DNA of 51,186 nucleotides from Candidatus Magasanikiibacteriota bacterium (GTDB lineage Bacteria > Patescibacteriota > Patescibacteriia > Magasanikbacterales > UBA922): contig JABIFP010000003.1 in NCBI GenBank assembly GCA_018650645.1, positions 1 through 51,186 of the forward strand, written 5' to 3'. The position numbers and the translations under genes were made by a program. Within the stretch, counting starts at the first letter, position 1, and every line of letters starts with the position of its first letter. Below the pieces are notes generated by a model. That model was not told the origin of the DNA. It was given only the letters and a program-made list of their open reading frames with translations, and made no database searches. This document shows, one piece after another, positions 8,730 through 36,235 of the stretch.

Positions 8730-9236
8730 TTATTTTTTTACTTGCCGTATAATTTGTTCGACTATATCATCAAGAGATAATTTATGGGTATCAAAAACAG
8801 TATACCCTGTAAACGCTTTTGCCTGCAAAACATCATAGAGATATGTGAATCTCTTTTCATCAGTTTCCTTTCCATTCTGAATATCTCTCTGTTTTACACG
8901 TTCAAGTAACACCTCAAATGGAGCCACCAATGAATACTTATATAGTTTTGCACCAAGCGCTTTCACAACAACCTCTAAATCCTGCAGTTTCTGTTCTACC
9001 AAACCACAATCAATAATGATATTACTTCCTTCTTCATATTTTTTTGTTACTTCCTCAAGTAACATGCCAAACGCCTGCTGATTGAAATCCGCCGTGGCCT
9101 TAGCTTTCGGTATAGAACGGCGCAGTTCATCCAAACTCAAATACTGAATATTTGATAATTGTTTTTTGATTTCTGCAGAGATTGTTGTTTTCCCTGAACC
9201 CTTCGGGCCATCTAGGACGATTATGAATCGTTTCAT
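8730..9236 (-). CDS. P-loop nucleotide kinase-like protein
   Basis: MKRFIIVLDGPKGSGKTTISAEIKKQL Walker A. Confidence 0.75.
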   Translation of the reverse strand: MKRFIIVLDGPKGSGKTTISAEIKKQLSNIQYLSLDELRRSIPKAKATADFNQQAFGMLLEEVTKKYEEGSNIIIDCGLVEQKLQDLEVVVKALGAKLYKYSLVAPFEVLLERVKQRDIQNGKETDEKRFTYLYDVLQAKAFTGYTVFDTHKLSLDDIVEQIIRQVKK

Positions 9237-9375
9237 ACATTCCTGTGACATAGTTGCGTTCATTAGTCATCCCATACAGTATACCTAACGAGTAAACCTA
9301 TTAAAAGGTATAAGTAATACTATACATATAGGCACTTTTAGCGTATCCTGAAAAAATCAGACTAATGACTTTTTT

Positions 9376-9879
9376 ATGCAACTTCCCAAAAGAAAACCCG
9401 GCAAATATGCTAACCAACCTTTAGATCCTTTTTTGACGCAGCAAAAATTTGATGAACTTTCGGCAAAACTCAATACACTTATAAAGCATAGCCGGCCAAA
9501 GTGGGCAACAGAAGTTAGCAGACTTGCCGAACTAGGCGATTTTTCAGAAAATGTTGAGTACCAACTCGCCAAAGGAAAACTCCGTGGTATAAATAGTGCT
9601 ATTTTAAAAATTCAGTATCAAATTGACCACGCGCAAATCATTACCCCACCAAAAGGGACGCATGCAAAAATCCGGATTGGAAGTACGGTCACCATAAGCT
9701 CAGAAGGCAATGAAAAGATATATCAAATATTAGGAAGATCAGAAACGAACCCTGACAAAGGAATCATTTCCCACACGTCTCCTATTGGCGCGGCACTACT
9801 CAGTCACAAAGTTGGAGATAGCGTTGAATTAACGCTTCCAAATAAAACGATCTCTTGTACCATTATTCGTGTAGAATAA
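9376..9879 (+). CDS. GreA/GreB-family transcription elongation factor
   Basis: RLAELGDFSENVEYQLAKGKLRGINSAILKIQYQIDHAQII and C-terminal FKBP-like domain GIISHTSPIGAALLSHKVGDSVEL. Confidence 0.9.
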   Translation: MQLPKRKPGKYANQPLDPFLTQQKFDELSAKLNTLIKHSRPKWATEVSRLAELGDFSENVEYQLAKGKLRGINSAILKIQYQIDHAQIITPPKGTHAKIRIGSTVTISSEGNEKIYQILGRSETNPDKGIISHTSPIGAALLSHKVGDSVELTLPNKTISCTIIRVE

Positions 9880-27260: not shown

Positions 27261-28768
<1,508 letters not shown>

Positions 28769-29239: not shown

Positions 29240-29794
29240 CTATATCTTGCCAGCACCTTCTAAATCCAAAATGTATGAGGAAATATATGGCCTATAGGCT
29301 TCCTTCAATGAAGGTAAAAGTGCCTGATAACTGCCTAATTTACCCTTACAAGATGAAGCGCCACAGGCACATCTCAAATCTTTTTCAGTTTGCAGCAACA
29401 GTGATGAGTCATACCTCACGATAATCATTGCATAATCAATGGTAAGGTGCTCTCCCTTTTGAATATCACGCATGGCGACAACAACGGTACGACCCTTGAT
29501 TCCAGTATTTGGTTCACATGAATGATTCATATTTGAAAAAGGTGGCAAAGGGTCCACAAACAACCAGACATCTTCTCCATCCCAATAGATTGGAATGGTA
29601 TAAATTGACGGAACCGATACAGTAGCACCAGCCAATACGTATATCGATTCTCCTTTTTTTATATTTCTTTTTGCAAAAATACCCTTTCCTATATTTGCAC
29701 TTACTTCCTTTGTCTCAATATTTTTTTCTATATCAAAAAATGAAAATGAGCACTCTTTACTCGATAAATCTATTTGATTATCAGATACAAACAT
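29240..29794 (-). CDS. SET-domain lysine-methyltransferase-like protein with post-SET Cys cluster
   Basis: GKGIFAKRNIKKGESIYVL...FSNMNHSCEPNTGIKGRTVVVAMRDIQKGEHLTIDYA...RCACGASSCKG. Confidence 0.88.
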   Translation of the reverse strand: MFVSDNQIDLSSKECSFSFFDIEKNIETKEVSANIGKGIFAKRNIKKGESIYVLAGATVSVPSIYTIPIYWDGEDVWLFVDPLPPFSNMNHSCEPNTGIKGRTVVVAMRDIQKGEHLTIDYAMIIVRYDSSLLLQTEKDLRCACGASSCKGKLGSYQALLPSLKEAYRPYISSYILDLEGAGKI

Positions 29795-29802
29795 ATGCTG
29801 TT

Positions 29803-30501
29803 TTAACGCAAATCAATTAAACGCTGCGTAGAAAGATTATATTGATGATGCTGATATTTATTCTTTGGGTTATCTAATCCAAGTAAATTATGAGCATAAA
29901 GATATCGTTCGCTTTCTAGTGGCTCCCCTGGATAGCAATTAAGTACCCACTGTTCATGATGATTGATATACGCATTAGGCAAAGACACTACTCCCTTTGC
30001 CAATAAATACAATACGGTGATTTCCTCCAAAAAGAAGTCAGCTTGCCCCTGTGTCAACCTTCTTTCCTGGGCATCTCTTTTTATAGCACGCCTAAATGAA
30101 TCATCTTTTTTGTATATTTCTTTTATCTTCTGCAAATATAACCCGAGATCTCGAAATTCTAATAGCAACTGCGCCCAAGTGAAAAAAGAAAATGATGGAA
30201 TAATCCATGCTGGATTTTTTTCAAGAAGCTTAAGCATACCGTTTTTATGAGAACTCATTTGGTTTACGTATGTATTTCTAAGTTTTCGTGCTGAAAGTGT
30301 TGCCGTATGCATATACAAATAATCTGCATACAAAAATGATAAACCAATACCTTCGGTTCTTTGAATCTTTTCACAAAGCTGCTCAATATGTTTCATGCAT
30401 GATGCTGCAGACTGAGCATTATCAATCCTCGCCATCGAAATGCCAAACAAAATCATGCCTTTTGACTTGGGCAATTGATTGATATCAAAGGAGTCATCCA
30501 T
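29803..30501 (-). CDS. Cyclodipeptide synthase-like protein (XYP-type motifs)
   Basis: ILFGIS (catalytic GxS), FFLEEITVLYLL (aligned to YxxxE motif, Y to F), NCYPGEP (Y-P signature); length 232 aa typical of CDPS. Confidence 0.7.
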   Translation of the reverse strand: MDDSFDINQLPKSKGMILFGISMARIDNAQSAASCMKHIEQLCEKIQRTEGIGLSFLYADYLYMHTATLSARKLRNTYVNQMSSHKNGMLKLLEKNPAWIIPSFSFFTWAQLLLEFRDLGLYLQKIKEIYKKDDSFRRAIKRDAQERRLTQGQADFFLEEITVLYLLAKGVVSLPNAYINHHEQWVLNCYPGEPLESERYLYAHNLLGLDNPKNKYQHHQYNLSTQRLIDLR

Positions 30502-30519
30502 ACATGAAAATTACTTACT

Positions 30520-31227
30520 TTATTTATTTTTTCGCCACCTCTCAATTTTTCCATGATCACCGCTAAGGAGCACATCTGGCACTTTCCAGCCCTTAAAATC
30601 CACTGGCCGTGTGTATTGTGGATACTCTACTTCTACTCCTGATTCATCTACTAAATGATTATGCGATTCGTCTTTTAATGACTCTGGGTTCCCAAGGACA
30701 CCCGGTACTAATCGACTCACAGCTTCCACAATAGTAAGCGCACCAAGTTCACCACCGGCAAGCACATACGGCCCAACAGAAATTTCTTCGTCAATCATGT
30801 GGTCAACCACGCGCTGATCAATGCCTTCGTACCTGCCGCAAATAAGAACCAGCTCATCGAGTTTACTCCACTGCTGCGCTATTTTTTGATCAAACTGTCT
30901 TCCTCTAGGAGAAAGAACTACTGTGCGTGTTTTCTTTTTCAGCGATCCGTTAAATATCTTTTTTACCTTTGTAAGCCCATCAACCTTCCCAAAAGGAATT
31001 GCATCGATTGATTTCAGTGCTTTATATATAGGCTCTGGTTTCATAACCATGCCTGCTCCCCCACCATAGGGCGTATCGTCTACTGTACCGCGGGTATCTG
31101 CAGAGAATTCACGAATATTAACAGCGCTAACAGTAATTACGTCCGCCGCTTGTCCGCGTTTCAAAATGCTCTGAGACGAATAGTCTGTAATCATTTCTGG
31201 GAAAATAGTGAGTACTGAAAATTTCAT
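30520..31227 (-). CDS. trmD: tRNA (guanine-N1)-methyltransferase TrmD
   Basis: MKFSVLTIFPEMITDYSSQSILKRGQ...YGGGAGMVMKPEPIYKAL...LICGRYEGIDQRVVDHMIDEEISVGPYVLAGGELGAL. Confidence 0.96.
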   Translation of the reverse strand: MKFSVLTIFPEMITDYSSQSILKRGQAADVITVSAVNIREFSADTRGTVDDTPYGGGAGMVMKPEPIYKALKSIDAIPFGKVDGLTKVKKIFNGSLKKKTRTVVLSPRGRQFDQKIAQQWSKLDELVLICGRYEGIDQRVVDHMIDEEISVGPYVLAGGELGALTIVEAVSRLVPGVLGNPESLKDESHNHLVDESGVEVEYPQYTRPVDFKGWKVPDVLLSGDHGKIERWRKNK

Positions 31228-31229
31228 AT

Positions 31230-31430
31230 TTAGGTGATAGGTTTGATATGAGACCAAAAACGTTCATGTAAATAATAGAACAACATTTTTGCAACGACCT
31301 CTATTGCCCCGACTTCTAGCATGGTGCTAATTTCCCCTGTAAAGAGGTATACAAGCGCCATAGTAGTAAGTGACGCAATAACTCGCCAACTGATTGTTTT
31401 GGCTAGAGAGCGCTTATGTGAGTCCGCCAT
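31230..31430 (-). CDS. DUF2061 small membrane protein
   Basis: KRSLAKTISWRVIASLTTMALVYLFTGEISTMLEVGAIEVVAKMLFYYLHERFWSHI. Confidence 0.85.
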   Translation of the reverse strand: MADSHKRSLAKTISWRVIASLTTMALVYLFTGEISTMLEVGAIEVVAKMLFYYLHERFWSHIKPIT

Positions 31431-31492: not shown

Positions 31493-34400
31493 TTACATGA
31501 AGCAGAATCCGCAGGACCTAATGTCTAGTCCTTGCGCCTCAGCTTCTGTACGTAAGTAACTTTCATCGGAATTGAATTCTGCATTATGGGTACACACGTA
31601 TTCTGTGTCGCACTGTACACCGTTTGCTACAGGCTCAGGTTCAGGTTCTGGCTCAGGAGCACAAGATGGATCAGCACTACACTGGTTATCGTCACAATCC
31701 GTTTGGCCATTTCTATCATTATCTACCCTATCACTACAATCAAATTCCGTTTCACCACAGTCGTTTTGGAAATCATTTCTACATTCTCCACCACTACAGG
31801 AATCTTCTGTACACTGATCTTGATCTGCACAATCCGCGTCAACGCGACATTCTGGTTCTGGTTCTGGAGCACAAGATGGATCAGCGCTACACTGATTGTC
31901 ATCACAATCCGTCTGACCATTTCTATCATTATCTACCCTATCACTACAATCAAATTCCGTTTCACCACAATCGTTTTGGAAATCATTTCTACATGCTCCA
32001 TTGTGACAACTATCATTCGTACACAAGCTATTATCATTACAATCAGCATCTTGTCGACATTCTGGTTCTGGCTCCGGTTCTGGAGCAACTTCAGCCTCGC
32101 AAGCACCGCAACTATGGAACTCAGCCCATGCTGGAATGTCTTCTTGATTCATGGTGCGCTTATCGGCATCAATCCACACACACACCTGTCTTTCCTGACA
32201 CTGAGGGAATACAAATTCTGGAGCTTCTTCAATTTCTCTTTCTGGCTCAGGTTCAGGCTCTTCAACTTCATCTACAGGAATAATACATTGACCGCAAGAA
32301 ATGAATTCTGCACCTTCTGGAGCTTCACGTTTTCCATAGGATTCTTCGTTTCCTCGATGACGCACGCAGACTAATTCTTCTGCACATTGAGCAAACGCTT
32401 CCTCAGGTTCTTCTTCAATATCTAGTTCAAAAAATGCACGATTATTGTTTTCATCACTCTCTTCAACCGCTCCCAAATAATCGACTTCTACCTGAATTAC
32501 CCGCGCACTTCCATTCCTTACCGAATCAGCAATTGGTACATGTACTGTTTGCTCTGTTCCCGGCGCAATTGATGATTCAATGCGGAATCCAGGACCATCG
32601 TCTAACTCATCTGATCCTGAAGTAGCATGACTAAATACTGATACTTCCGCCGCATTTTCTCCGGTAAATTCATATATACTTCCTCTATTTTCAACGGTTA
32701 CTCGCAAAAAATCTCCAATGAGCTCAACGCGAACTGGAACTAAATCTGGAAGCTCATCATCATCTCTTGATTCACGTTGCAAGTCTGCTGTTTCTTCTTC
32801 TGACAAGAGTTCCACTTCAGCTACTTGCTCGTTAAACACATCTCTTGCTATATCATCATCTTCAAACGCTTCTAACATTAGATCAAGCGATTGATCTTCA
32901 AGCTTTACGCGCAGTTTTATTTCTCGCACAACTCGATTGGTAATGTGTTGTTGCACCACTTTTACCGCAATGCGAGTTTCATCTTTTTTCGCACGCTGTT
33001 TTACTTCTTCAAGTGCTTTAAAGTCAGCAACAGAAGCTGAACGCTCTTTCACTTTTAGTGTAAATTTGCTTCGCTCACCTTCTGACATGAAGTCAACGCG
33101 TGCAGCGACTCGTCTTGCTGCTTTTTCTTTTACTTTTTTCAATTGATTCTTCGTGGATTCTGGCGCTTGTTCTTCTAATATTTTTAACAGTGCTACTTGT
33201 CCAACAAGATCAGCATCGTCACCCGCATCTTTAGCCGTAGCGTCTTCAACAATAGCTGCAATATCATGCCGCTCTTGCACATCTGCAAGCACCTTTCCTA
33301 CTGTTTTTATAATATCCTTTTGCTCTTTTTCAAAGGCTACCTGATCTTCAACAGCGACATCCTTTGCCATAACACCAGCCACGCGAGCTGCGCGTGCCTG
33401 TGCTCGCAATCCGGCTCCAAGTATTTCTTTTTGCTCAGCCTCATCTTTTACTTTTACTGCAATTTCCATTGCGTCAGCGGCTTCTTCCATTGCAGACGCG
33501 GTATGTTTAAGCGCAACTTCACTCTTTCCTTTTTCTTTCAATTTTTTCACCTCAACCATCTTTTCTGAAGCAAATCGAAGTTTTAATTTCGTTTTCTTCA
33601 CTTTATTGAATGTAAGTGCTGATCGCACTTTTCGCATACCGGCCTTCACCACATATAATCCACTATCTGGAAGTATTCGCGGCTCATATGCATCGGCAGC
33701 ATCGTCTTCCTGGTCTTGCTGCGGCTCAAATTCAGCTTCCTGCTCAATAAATACTCTTGCGTCATCTACATCTCCCAAATCTCTCCCTTCGAAGTTGTTA
33801 CTATATGACGTTTCGGGAATATCATGATCCAAATTAATGAACATTTCTACATACGTTGCTCCTTCTGGTACGTTATTACGTACATACTCCCAATTTCCCT
33901 CTCTATCTTGGCGCAGTATTTGCTCCTCCGACTCCAAAATTCGCTCTGGGGCAGAATAACGAACATGTACGGTAACATTTCCCTGATACTCCGTGTCTAA
34001 CGTGTCATCAGCAATAATAAAGCGATGTCCTTCTTCTGTAAACGAATTATATGCAAGATAAAAGTCTGGAGCAAATCCATATGACTCACTATTATCTTCA
34101 TTTGTAAGCTCCTGAATTACGGCTTCGGGATTAACCTCTGCTTCAACGCGTGTAATATATCCAATGTTGTCTGGCGCTCTAAACTGCGCAAACCAATACC
34201 CTGACTGATGCCGCTCAGGCATATTATTTACTGCACGAGTCCATTCTCTAAGTTCCCCCACACCATACCAATTCACTCCAATTGCAGGAGCAGCTTCAGA
34301 ACGATTATATTCGTCATAGGCCCGAACCTCTATTGATCCATCATCGTTTGCGATAATTCTATCTGCATAAAAATTAGGGATTGGAAACCCTTCCCAAATA

Positions 34401-36133
34401 TTGTTTCCTTCATTGCTTTCTGCAATTTCACCATCGATATCTGCAGTGATACGCATAAGCTCTGCATCGGGATGATATCCCTGCCGCGGAAGTTCTACTC
34501 TCGCCTGCCATATTCCTGGCTCTTCCTGATCTACATAATGTCCGCTTACAAAACCAGGGTTATTCATATCGGGACCAAACCATTGTAATCCTACCAAGAA
34601 TGGTTCCGGATCAAAATCAATTGGCGCACCGTTATTTCGCATTACCACGTATGCATCGCCATCTCTAAAATCAACACTTGTAATAACAATGTCTGGTTGC
34701 GCAATTGCTCGAGCAATATTTGCTCCCATATCCTCTTGATTGATTTGTTGTCCTTCTATTTCATTTCCAAGCGCATTCACTCCTGCACCAGTTTGTAATG
34801 AGTAGTAACATTGCCACTCACTCCTGTCAGTTACACTTGCCTGGTTTTCTCCATAGAACTGTAATCGCGCTCTACGATTATTGTTTTTTGTAAGATAATC
34901 AAGCATGTCTCCATCACCAATTCCAGTAAGACAAGCTACATGATCTTCATCAGTCATCTCAAATAGCCCATAATATCGTGCAAATAAGTCACAAGTGTAG
35001 CTTTCAAATAATTCTGAGCCTGCAACATGATCTGAATCATACGTTTCCTGCAGTCGCTCTCCGCTAATAATTCTTTCTACACAGGCTATTTTCTCTTCAT
35101 AGGTCAATTGTTCTACACGACGTTGACGATATTCTTGCTCATATTCACGCGTAATGAACGCATTTTCATCAAAATACTCCTCTTGCATGTCTTCTGGTAA
35201 ATAATCATGTAATCCTCGAGCTATGAGCAAGTTTGAAGCATCTCTATCATAATAATAGTCTTCTTCAAACCACCCTTCCATCTTTGCAAATCGATCTACC
35301 GCTTGCTGACATGTTGGATTTGGATTTAGCCCATTCACAGATACATATGCCGTGCACACCTCTCTGTGATCTTGTGTTACATGAAATTGCTCAACTCCAC
35401 ATTGCAGTGCTACACAATCAGCCTTCTGAATCTCATTTAGTTCGAAATACCCGGATCTATATTCTGCTGATTCTGGAATATAGCCAGCGCGAATGCTACC
35501 ACATCTATTTTCACTTCTACCAACGGCAACATCCATTACTGCTGAACAGTATTGCTGCTGTTCCTCTAGATTATTTACATTTCTATAATCATCTGTACAA
35601 AGTACATGGGCACATCTTCTCAGTTCCTGCTGACAAGAAGCATATGCTTCTTCATCTTGCGCAGTTGAACAATTTTCAGCCACATCGTAAACATCTTCTT
35701 CAAGCTCATCAGGAAGTGCATCTGTCACCTCTCTTGCAATGCGATACTCAAGGTCAACACATACGTCATATGAACTCTCATATTGCTCACTAACAATTCC
35801 ATACCCTTCTCTAGCCCACTGCTCACAAGCCTGAGCCTGCTCCCCGCCTGGTGTTGGATCAAATGGACTACCATTAATATGATCCGCAAAGCCCCTCTCG
35901 CCATAACACATATAAAAGAGACAATCCTGCTCAGTTGGCTGATATACAGCATCAGCAAGACGTAAAATATTGGAAACTTCATCTTCTGAAAGCCCTGCAT
36001 TTTCTCCTACTTCTACTTCTGCAAAATCAAAAAAACCGGTCTGAATTTGATAAAAAGCTTGCGTTTGCGTTACCAAACCTAGTGGTAAACAAAAAGCTAT
36101 TGCAAAAAGCAATATACGAGGAATGCGCTTCAT
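31493..36133 (-). CDS. Giant secreted surface protein: CARDB-like segments, DUF5667-like coiled region, tandem Cys-rich modules
   Basis: Signal peptide MKRIPRILLFAIAFCLPLGLVTQTQA; CARDB-like NNGAPIDFD...ESNEGNN; KVRSALTFNKVKKTKLKLRFASEKMVEVKKLKEKGKSEVALKH; C-terminal DCNDNSLCTNDSCHNGACRN modules. Confidence 0.85.
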   Translation of the reverse strand: MKRIPRILLFAIAFCLPLGLVTQTQAFYQIQTGFFDFAEVEVGENAGLSEDEVSNILRLADAVYQPTEQDCLFYMCYGERGFADHINGSPFDPTPGGEQAQACEQWAREGYGIVSEQYESSYDVCVDLEYRIAREVTDALPDELEEDVYDVAENCSTAQDEEAYASCQQELRRCAHVLCTDDYRNVNNLEEQQQYCSAVMDVAVGRSENRCGSIRAGYIPESAEYRSGYFELNEIQKADCVALQCGVEQFHVTQDHREVCTAYVSVNGLNPNPTCQQAVDRFAKMEGWFEEDYYYDRDASNLLIARGLHDYLPEDMQEEYFDENAFITREYEQEYRQRRVEQLTYEEKIACVERIISGERLQETYDSDHVAGSELFESYTCDLFARYYGLFEMTDEDHVACLTGIGDGDMLDYLTKNNNRRARLQFYGENQASVTDRSEWQCYYSLQTGAGVNALGNEIEGQQINQEDMGANIARAIAQPDIVITSVDFRDGDAYVVMRNNGAPIDFDPEPFLVGLQWFGPDMNNPGFVSGHYVDQEEPGIWQARVELPRQGYHPDAELMRITADIDGEIAESNEGNNIWEGFPIPNFYADRIIANDDGSIEVRAYDEYNRSEAAPAIGVNWYGVGELREWTRAVNNMPERHQSGYWFAQFRAPDNIGYITRVEAEVNPEAVIQELTNEDNSESYGFAPDFYLAYNSFTEEGHRFIIADDTLDTEYQGNVTVHVRYSAPERILESEEQILRQDREGNWEYVRNNVPEGATYVEMFINLDHDIPETSYSNNFEGRDLGDVDDARVFIEQEAEFEPQQDQEDDAADAYEPRILPDSGLYVVKAGMRKVRSALTFNKVKKTKLKLRFASEKMVEVKKLKEKGKSEVALKHTASAMEEAADAMEIAVKVKDEAEQKEILGAGLRAQARAARVAGVMAKDVAVEDQVAFEKEQKDIIKTVGKVLADVQERHDIAAIVEDATAKDAGDDADLVGQVALLKILEEQAPESTKNQLKKVKEKAARRVAARVDFMSEGERSKFTLKVKERSASVADFKALEEVKQRAKKDETRIAVKVVQQHITNRVVREIKLRVKLEDQSLDLMLEAFEDDDIARDVFNEQVAEVELLSEEETADLQRESRDDDELPDLVPVRVELIGDFLRVTVENRGSIYEFTGENAAEVSVFSHATSGSDELDDGPGFRIESSIAPGTEQTVHVPIADSVRNGSARVIQVEVDYLGAVEESDENNNRAFFELDIEEEPEEAFAQCAEELVCVRHRGNEESYGKREAPEGAEFISCGQCIIPVDEVEEPEPEPEREIEEAPEFVFPQCQERQVCVWIDADKRTMNQEDIPAWAEFHSCGACEAEVAPEPEPEPECRQDADCNDNSLCTNDSCHNGACRNDFQNDCGETEFDCSDRVDNDRNGQTDCDDNQCSADPSCAPEPEPECRVDADCADQDQCTEDSCSGGECRNDFQNDCGETEFDCSDRVDNDRNGQTDCDDNQCSADPSCAPEPEPEPEPVANGVQCDTEYVCTHNAEFNSDESYLRTEAEAQGLDIRSCGFCFM
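31657..31998. repeat. Tandem ~132-bp near-identical direct repeats with 210-bp period, encoding Cys-rich modules
   Basis: 31657-31788 and 31867-31998 encode FQNDCGETEFDCSDRVDNDRNGQTDCDDNQCSADPSCAPEPEPE twice. Confidence 0.9.
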
Positions 36134-36193
36134 AATATGAAGATTAAAAGATGATGAATACAAAGTATGTTCATTATACGCTTTTTGCAAAAA

Positions 36194-36230
36194 CAAAAGC
36201 AAGCGAGTTGCCCCGCTTGCTTTTATTGTT
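36194..36230 (-). terminator. Intrinsic terminator of fusA
   Basis: AAAAGCAAGCG-gggcaact-CGCTTGCTTTTGTTTTTG. Confidence 0.75.
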
Positions 36231-36235
36231 TGCAA

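Follow-up and report, generated by a model that had tools for sequence, protein, structure and literature searches.

Two kinds of enzyme invite comparison with the locus described here: cyclodipeptide synthases (CDPSs), of which the RCDPSs are fungal and arginine-specific, and SET methyltransferases, a type that is best known from histones. ParcuCDPS from Parcubacteria bacterium RAAC4_OD1_1 belongs to the XYP CDPSs (CDPS 90) and makes cHis-Pro (cHP) and cHis-Glu (cHE) (PMC5816076, PMC7613923). A third subfamily, that of the RCDPSs, is described as sharing no sequence homology with either of the other CDPS subfamilies (PMC13062777). They provide a precedent for a CDPS lineage that is unrecognisable by sequence, as is the protein investigated here (Q). 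Q resembles the XYP CDPSs in its predicted Rossmann/HUP fold, its length, the order of the Ser, (Y/F)xxxE and YP elements, and its occurrence in Patescibacteria. However, it differs from them in the lack of HMMER-level similarity, the Phe in place of Tyr178, four further residues that are invariant in the Q family (Q30, K45, Y58, and H85), and its SET partner. BurB from Burkholderia thailandensis is a SET enzyme that methylates free Met (PMC12542666). Because BurB acts on free methionine, small-molecule chemistry is possible for a SET enzyme. The SET protein of our locus is like BurB a small stand-alone bacterial SET protein, and the two match by sequence (E 1.4e-3, PDB 9l4t), but the substrate of BurB is free Met and our protein is nearer to KMT2A by sequence (2e-8). 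We know of no CDPS partner of BurB. In an open-access library, judged by titles and abstracts, no paper describing a pairing of a CDPS with a SET protein was found.

The window, the whole analysed stretch of 51,186 nucleotides, contains Q, its partner, and two flanking genes as follows.

29803..30501, minus strand: Q, a 232-aa divergent CDPS-like protein (ORF, AF2 model, Foldseek, profile-profile comparison, family conservation)
29240..29794, minus strand: 184-aa SET-domain methyltransferase, starting 8 nt after the stop of Q (PF00856, PDB sequence matches, clade tree)
30520..31257, minus strand: trmD, tRNA m1G37 methyltransferase, 18 nt upstream of the Q ATG (PF01746, 4e-54)
27263..28766, minus strand: 16S rRNA gene, downstream, beyond the SET gene (Rfam RF00177)

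The initial annotation had the coordinates and strand of both ORFs right, and the 8-nt gap between the stop codon of Q and the ATG of the SET gene was verified. The CDPS landmarks that it had picked out, ILFGIS (S22), FFLEE (156-160), and NCYPGEP (Y190-P191), are all present in Q. The ORFs listed on both strands within the 16S rRNA gene are spurious.

Single-sequence and profile HMMER searches of Pfam, NCBIfam, PHROGs, and the PDB gave no significant match for Q. Neither the window's Q nor any other A1 member reached the cut-off of PF16715, and a search of the window's genome with this model returned zero matches. Homologues of Q were found in 14 genomes in total, including the window's own. 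They are present in 6 genomes beyond the window's own when 196 relatives were searched, and in 11 of the 389 genomes of the class, own counted; other searches added Adlerbacteria and one Pacearchaeota genome. Two weak profile matches are excluded from these counts as spurious: that in G118 has in-frame stops and lies within a DNA-polymerase-like ORF, and that in G157 (E 8e-5) is an alanyl-tRNA-synthetase-like ORF. No homologue was found in viral contigs or plasmids. The G346 genome has two Q paralogues 1.8 kb apart (L041:6270-7025 and 8798-9565). In the Q of Candidatus Pacearchaeota (L120:6098-6790), Tyr-Pro is replaced by Tyr-Cys and the Asp at position 60 by Ser.

The relationship of Q to CDPSs emerges from its predicted structure. 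An AlphaFold (AF2) model built from an alignment of 12 sequences had a pLDDT of 88.1 and a pTM of 0.85. The best 40 matches of this model in a Foldseek search of the PDB were all CDPSs, including AlbC (3oqv), 6ez3, 5ocd, 2x9q, 9gun, and ParcuCDPS (7qau), with E values from 9.9e-8 to 1.6e-3, a probability of 1.00, TM scores mostly of 0.5-0.6, and identities of 10-16%. The next matches were TyrRS and TrpRS, which are known fold relatives of CDPSs. In a profile-profile comparison (hhalign), the Q profile matched a set of 10 genuine CDPSs, nine from Patescibacteria contigs and ParcuCDPS, with an E value of 4.4e-5. Once mostly-gap columns were removed, Q scored 38.0; column-shuffled profiles scored 24.0 at most (0/150 reached the score of Q), and the reversed profile 13.8. 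All Q sequences lack the HIGH and KMSKS signatures of class I aminoacyl-tRNA synthetases; this absence, together with a structural match weaker than that to CDPSs, ruled out a class I synthetase fragment.

The catalytic positions of Q were taken from its alignment with CDPSs; the assignment of S22 relies on a low-stringency alignment and the GIS motif. The conservation counts below take in the Q homologues that cover each position.

30436..30438, minus strand: codon of S22, predicted nucleophile (AlbC S37, ParcuCDPS S26), invariant in 15/15
30034..30036, minus strand: F156 codon, corresponding to the catalytic Tyr178, Phe in 13/13, aligned with the Tyr of YxLEEL
30022..30024, minus strand: E160 codon, which aligns with the catalytic Glu182, invariant in 13/13
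29929..29934, minus strand: Y190-P191 codons, aligned with Y202-P203 of XYP CDPSs, Tyr in 14/14 and Pro in 13/14

The single exception at P191 is the Cys of the Pacearchaeota copy. The catalytic residues of Q are invariant across sequences with identities down to about 26%. The motif that had been read as YxxxE stands at the right position and keeps its Glu, but is FxxxE in all of these sequences. Among the active-site mutants of ParcuCDPS, only S26C and Y167F retained product, at a lower yield; activity also remained after the equivalent Tyr-to-Phe change in three other XYP CDPSs, and the authors concluded that the phenyl ring counts for more than the hydroxyl (PMC7613923). In AlbC, Y178F substantially impaired activity (PMC5935735). 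Phe at position 156 is therefore compatible with catalysis, yet it lies outside the family definition of CDPSs, and for this reason we class Q with neither the NYH nor the XYP enzymes. By its predicted fold, its profile-profile match, and three of the four catalytic residues, Q is a deep CDPS-like lineage, in agreement with the original call. The XYP reading holds for the Y190-P191 signature and fails for membership. Our claim is that Q would work like a CDPS, rather than that it belongs to one of these families.

The partner protein exceeds the curated cut-off of PF00856 (E 2e-12, 47.9 bits against 22.4), and its NHSCEPN, DYA, and post-SET CACG...CKG motifs are present as first described. HSC, DY, and three post-SET Cys residues are invariant across nine members of its clade. 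Its AF2 model, built from a nine-row alignment, was poor (pLDDT 52.6).

The initial annotation had proposed a survey of related genomes for adjacency of the two genes. Such adjacency is real and recurrent across several lineages. Neither of the two outcomes that the annotation had named as refuting, a predicted structure other than a CDPS fold or a lack of conserved adjacency, was obtained, and its interpretation is supported. A SET gene directly follows Q in the window, in a second Candidatus Magasanikbacteria genome (G002, L010, also L083), in Falkowbacteria (G276, L039/L077), in G403 (L043), and in Adlerbacteria (L084). In G009 (L011), the SET and Q halves are a single 412-aa ORF, the SET half of which is degenerate: its NHSC, DY, and post-SET Cys residues are gone. 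Q has no adjoining SET gene in G023, G192, G294, G301, and G346, and contig ends interrupt the Q loci of G050 and G094. Thus, where the flanks of Q are visible, roughly one Q gene in two is without SET, which makes it a frequent but non-obligatory partner. The half-genes of MFS proteins that adjoin SET in G009 and CSMAG_44 are generic MFS sequences with only 23% identity.

When GTDB genomes were scanned for relatives of four SET proteins of the clade, 38 loci were obtained. The eight closest comprised Q-SET pairs in Falkowbacteria, Magasanikbacteria, and Adlerbacteria, a CDPS-SET pair in the Patescibacteria genome STA_35, a fusion remnant in Moranbacteria, and three SET genes without a CDPS or Q neighbour. 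In STA_35 (L031/L078), the SET gene follows a genuine CDPS gene (PF16715, E 1.7e-20). In Moranbacteria (L082), a genuine CDPS and a clade SET are joined in-frame in a truncated remnant. This ORF (L082:2007-2900) lacks the YP end of the CDPS as well as the start and the post-SET part of the SET protein, and is apparently an in-frame deletion that joined both genes, or an assembly error. Among the unpaired SET genes, that of the Pacearchaeota genome (L079) has Q on another contig; for the other two (L080 and L081), neither Q nor a PF16715 CDPS was detected in the genomes, which like those with G handles are drafts, where a missing gene can be a gap. Neither Q nor a CDPS lies beside the remaining 30 loci of the scan or beside 29 small SET loci sampled phylum-wide, within flanks of about 1.5-3.5 kb as the contigs permitted.

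In a SET tree of 67 rows, the Q-paired, CDPS-paired, and three unpaired proteins form one clade (n = 11, support 100/100), and both CDPS-paired proteins group with the Q-paired protein of Falkowbacteria (100/94). Adjacency or fusion was found in six Q genomes and two genomes with a genuine CDPS, all within this clade of 11, while the 56 small SET genes elsewhere in the tree include none with a Q or CDPS neighbour. The proportion of 8/11 is no unbiased rate, because Q had led to several of these genes and the queries of the scan were four paired ones; what the scan newly contributed was two adjacent pairs (L082 and L084), one pair in trans, and two SET genes without a partner. Since one SET clade pairs with both Q and CDPSs, the same methyltransferase lineage appears to serve two synthase lineages that have almost no sequence similarity.

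Other neighbours of Q point in the same direction as this exchange of partners. A GNAT protein beside Q in G294 (L040:5511-5993) is 36% identical to one whose gene overlaps a genuine CDPS gene in G094 (L035:2010-2492), and a protein near the Q pair of G346 shares 65% identity with a protein near the CDPS of STA_35. An HD_3/YfbR-like protein adjoins Q in G023 and G294 (L009:1533-2147 and L040:4874-5458; 54% identical), and is possibly an alternative partner. In G192, the partner position is taken by a class I (Methyltransf_11) SAM methyltransferase gene, 10 nt upstream of Q (L013:8241-8879).

The genomic site itself is variable. Of 30 trmD loci examined in the window's family, three (G000, G002, and G023) have Q after trmD, and the other 27 lack it. 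All 12 of the relatives without Q that were tested have the 16S gene downstream of trmD, and no Q-SET pair separates the two. The linkage to trmD was not seen at the other Q loci examined. Therefore, Q-SET looks like a cassette that was gained or lost at this site; it does not look like a part of tRNA m1G37 metabolism, and trmD appears to be a context gene. Between the EF-G gene and trmD, the window also encodes a predicted protein of 1580 aa (31493-36235, minus strand) that has an internal start resembling a signal peptide and, toward its C-terminus, repeats rich in Cys.

We moderately favour the reading that Q is a divergent aminoacyl-tRNA-dependent synthase of the CDPS type and that the SET protein is a tailoring enzyme acting on its product. 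With the CDPS mechanism as the template (PMC13062777, PMC5935735), the aminoacyl group of the first aminoacyl-tRNA would be transferred to S22, and a second aminoacyl-tRNA would give a dipeptidyl-enzyme. Y190 would then be the proton relay for cyclisation and release. E160 would take the role of Glu182, and F156 may give the aromatic contact that otherwise comes from Tyr178. Finally, the SET protein would use SAM to methylate a nucleophilic atom in the product.

The methyl acceptor could instead be a protein, such as Q itself, a component of translation, or a target for self-protection, with Q still working as a CDPS. Most characterised SET enzymes methylate protein lysines, and histone methyltransferases are the nearest solved structures by sequence. 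Nevertheless, we consider a protein target unlikely. The occurrence of one SET clade beside two dissimilar synthases points to a common trait, most simply the kind of product, and the rarity of clade SETs, which are missing from most relatives, makes a universal protein target less likely. Alternatively, Q may have a CDPS fold and another reaction, either as an aminoacyl-tRNA-dependent transferase whose acceptor is a peptide, a lipid, or a small molecule, or as a maker of a linear dipeptide. The Phe found in all members, the invariant residues specific to Q, and the variety of neighbours (GNAT, HD_3/YfbR-like protein, and class I methyltransferase) are in line with this. However, the cyclisation Tyr, the Ser, and the Glu are invariant, and the SET protein and, once, the GNAT protein are neighbours in common with genuine CDPS loci, so that a different reaction seems quite unlikely.

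A non-enzymatic relative of CDPSs, for example a protein that binds tRNA ends and has a role in tRNA metabolism near trmD, would suit the location of the window's Q between trmD and the 16S gene, as well as the visible degradation of partner genes in G009 and Moranbacteria. We regard it as improbable because the trmD linkage is seen at only a few of the loci examined and the catalytic residues are conserved among very divergent members. Mere chance adjacency of unrelated genes is hardly credible: tight spacing is common in small dense genomes and several Q genes have no SET neighbour, but the eight paired or fused cases fall in one SET clade and none among the other small SET genes.

We return to the synthase with a tailoring SET enzyme. 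By analogy with CDPSs, we infer that Q is active, that its product would be a cyclodipeptide or a related aminoacyl-tRNA-derived peptide, and that this product, rather than a protein, would be the methyl acceptor. As the same SET clade stands beside ordinary CDPSs, Q and SET probably make a methylated small molecule jointly. The initial annotation had offered a cyclodipeptide with Lys or His as a possible SET substrate. Histidine is plausible in principle, since ParcuCDPS makes His cyclodipeptides. Its P1 residues that recognise His are Y55, E174, and Y189 (PMC7613923). In our reading of the alignment, these correspond to Leu, Met, and Leu in the SET-partnered CDPS of STA_35. Therefore, His in P1 is not predicted for this CDPS, and a His cyclodipeptide as the SET substrate by analogy with ParcuCDPS is unsupported.

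More broadly, and tentatively, Q may represent a fourth CDPS lineage, which occurs in Patescibacteria and in one or more genomes of DPANN archaea. The SET clade may likewise be a new class of cyclodipeptide-tailoring enzymes common to two synthase lineages. PF16715-like models, on which genome mining for cyclodipeptides is based, would miss such a lineage. SET enzymes are usually regarded as methyltransferases of proteins, BurB being a rare small-molecule exception, and a clade that follows CDPSs would widen this view. Patescibacteria have small genomes and few known natural products; Q and SET are a compact two-gene candidate pathway in this group. Among the genuine CDPSs encountered, two from different Patescibacteria (L029:1492-2931, 479 aa, and L030:836-2323, 495 aa) are 61% identical; both have a YHKN motif as well as a long extension at the C-terminus.
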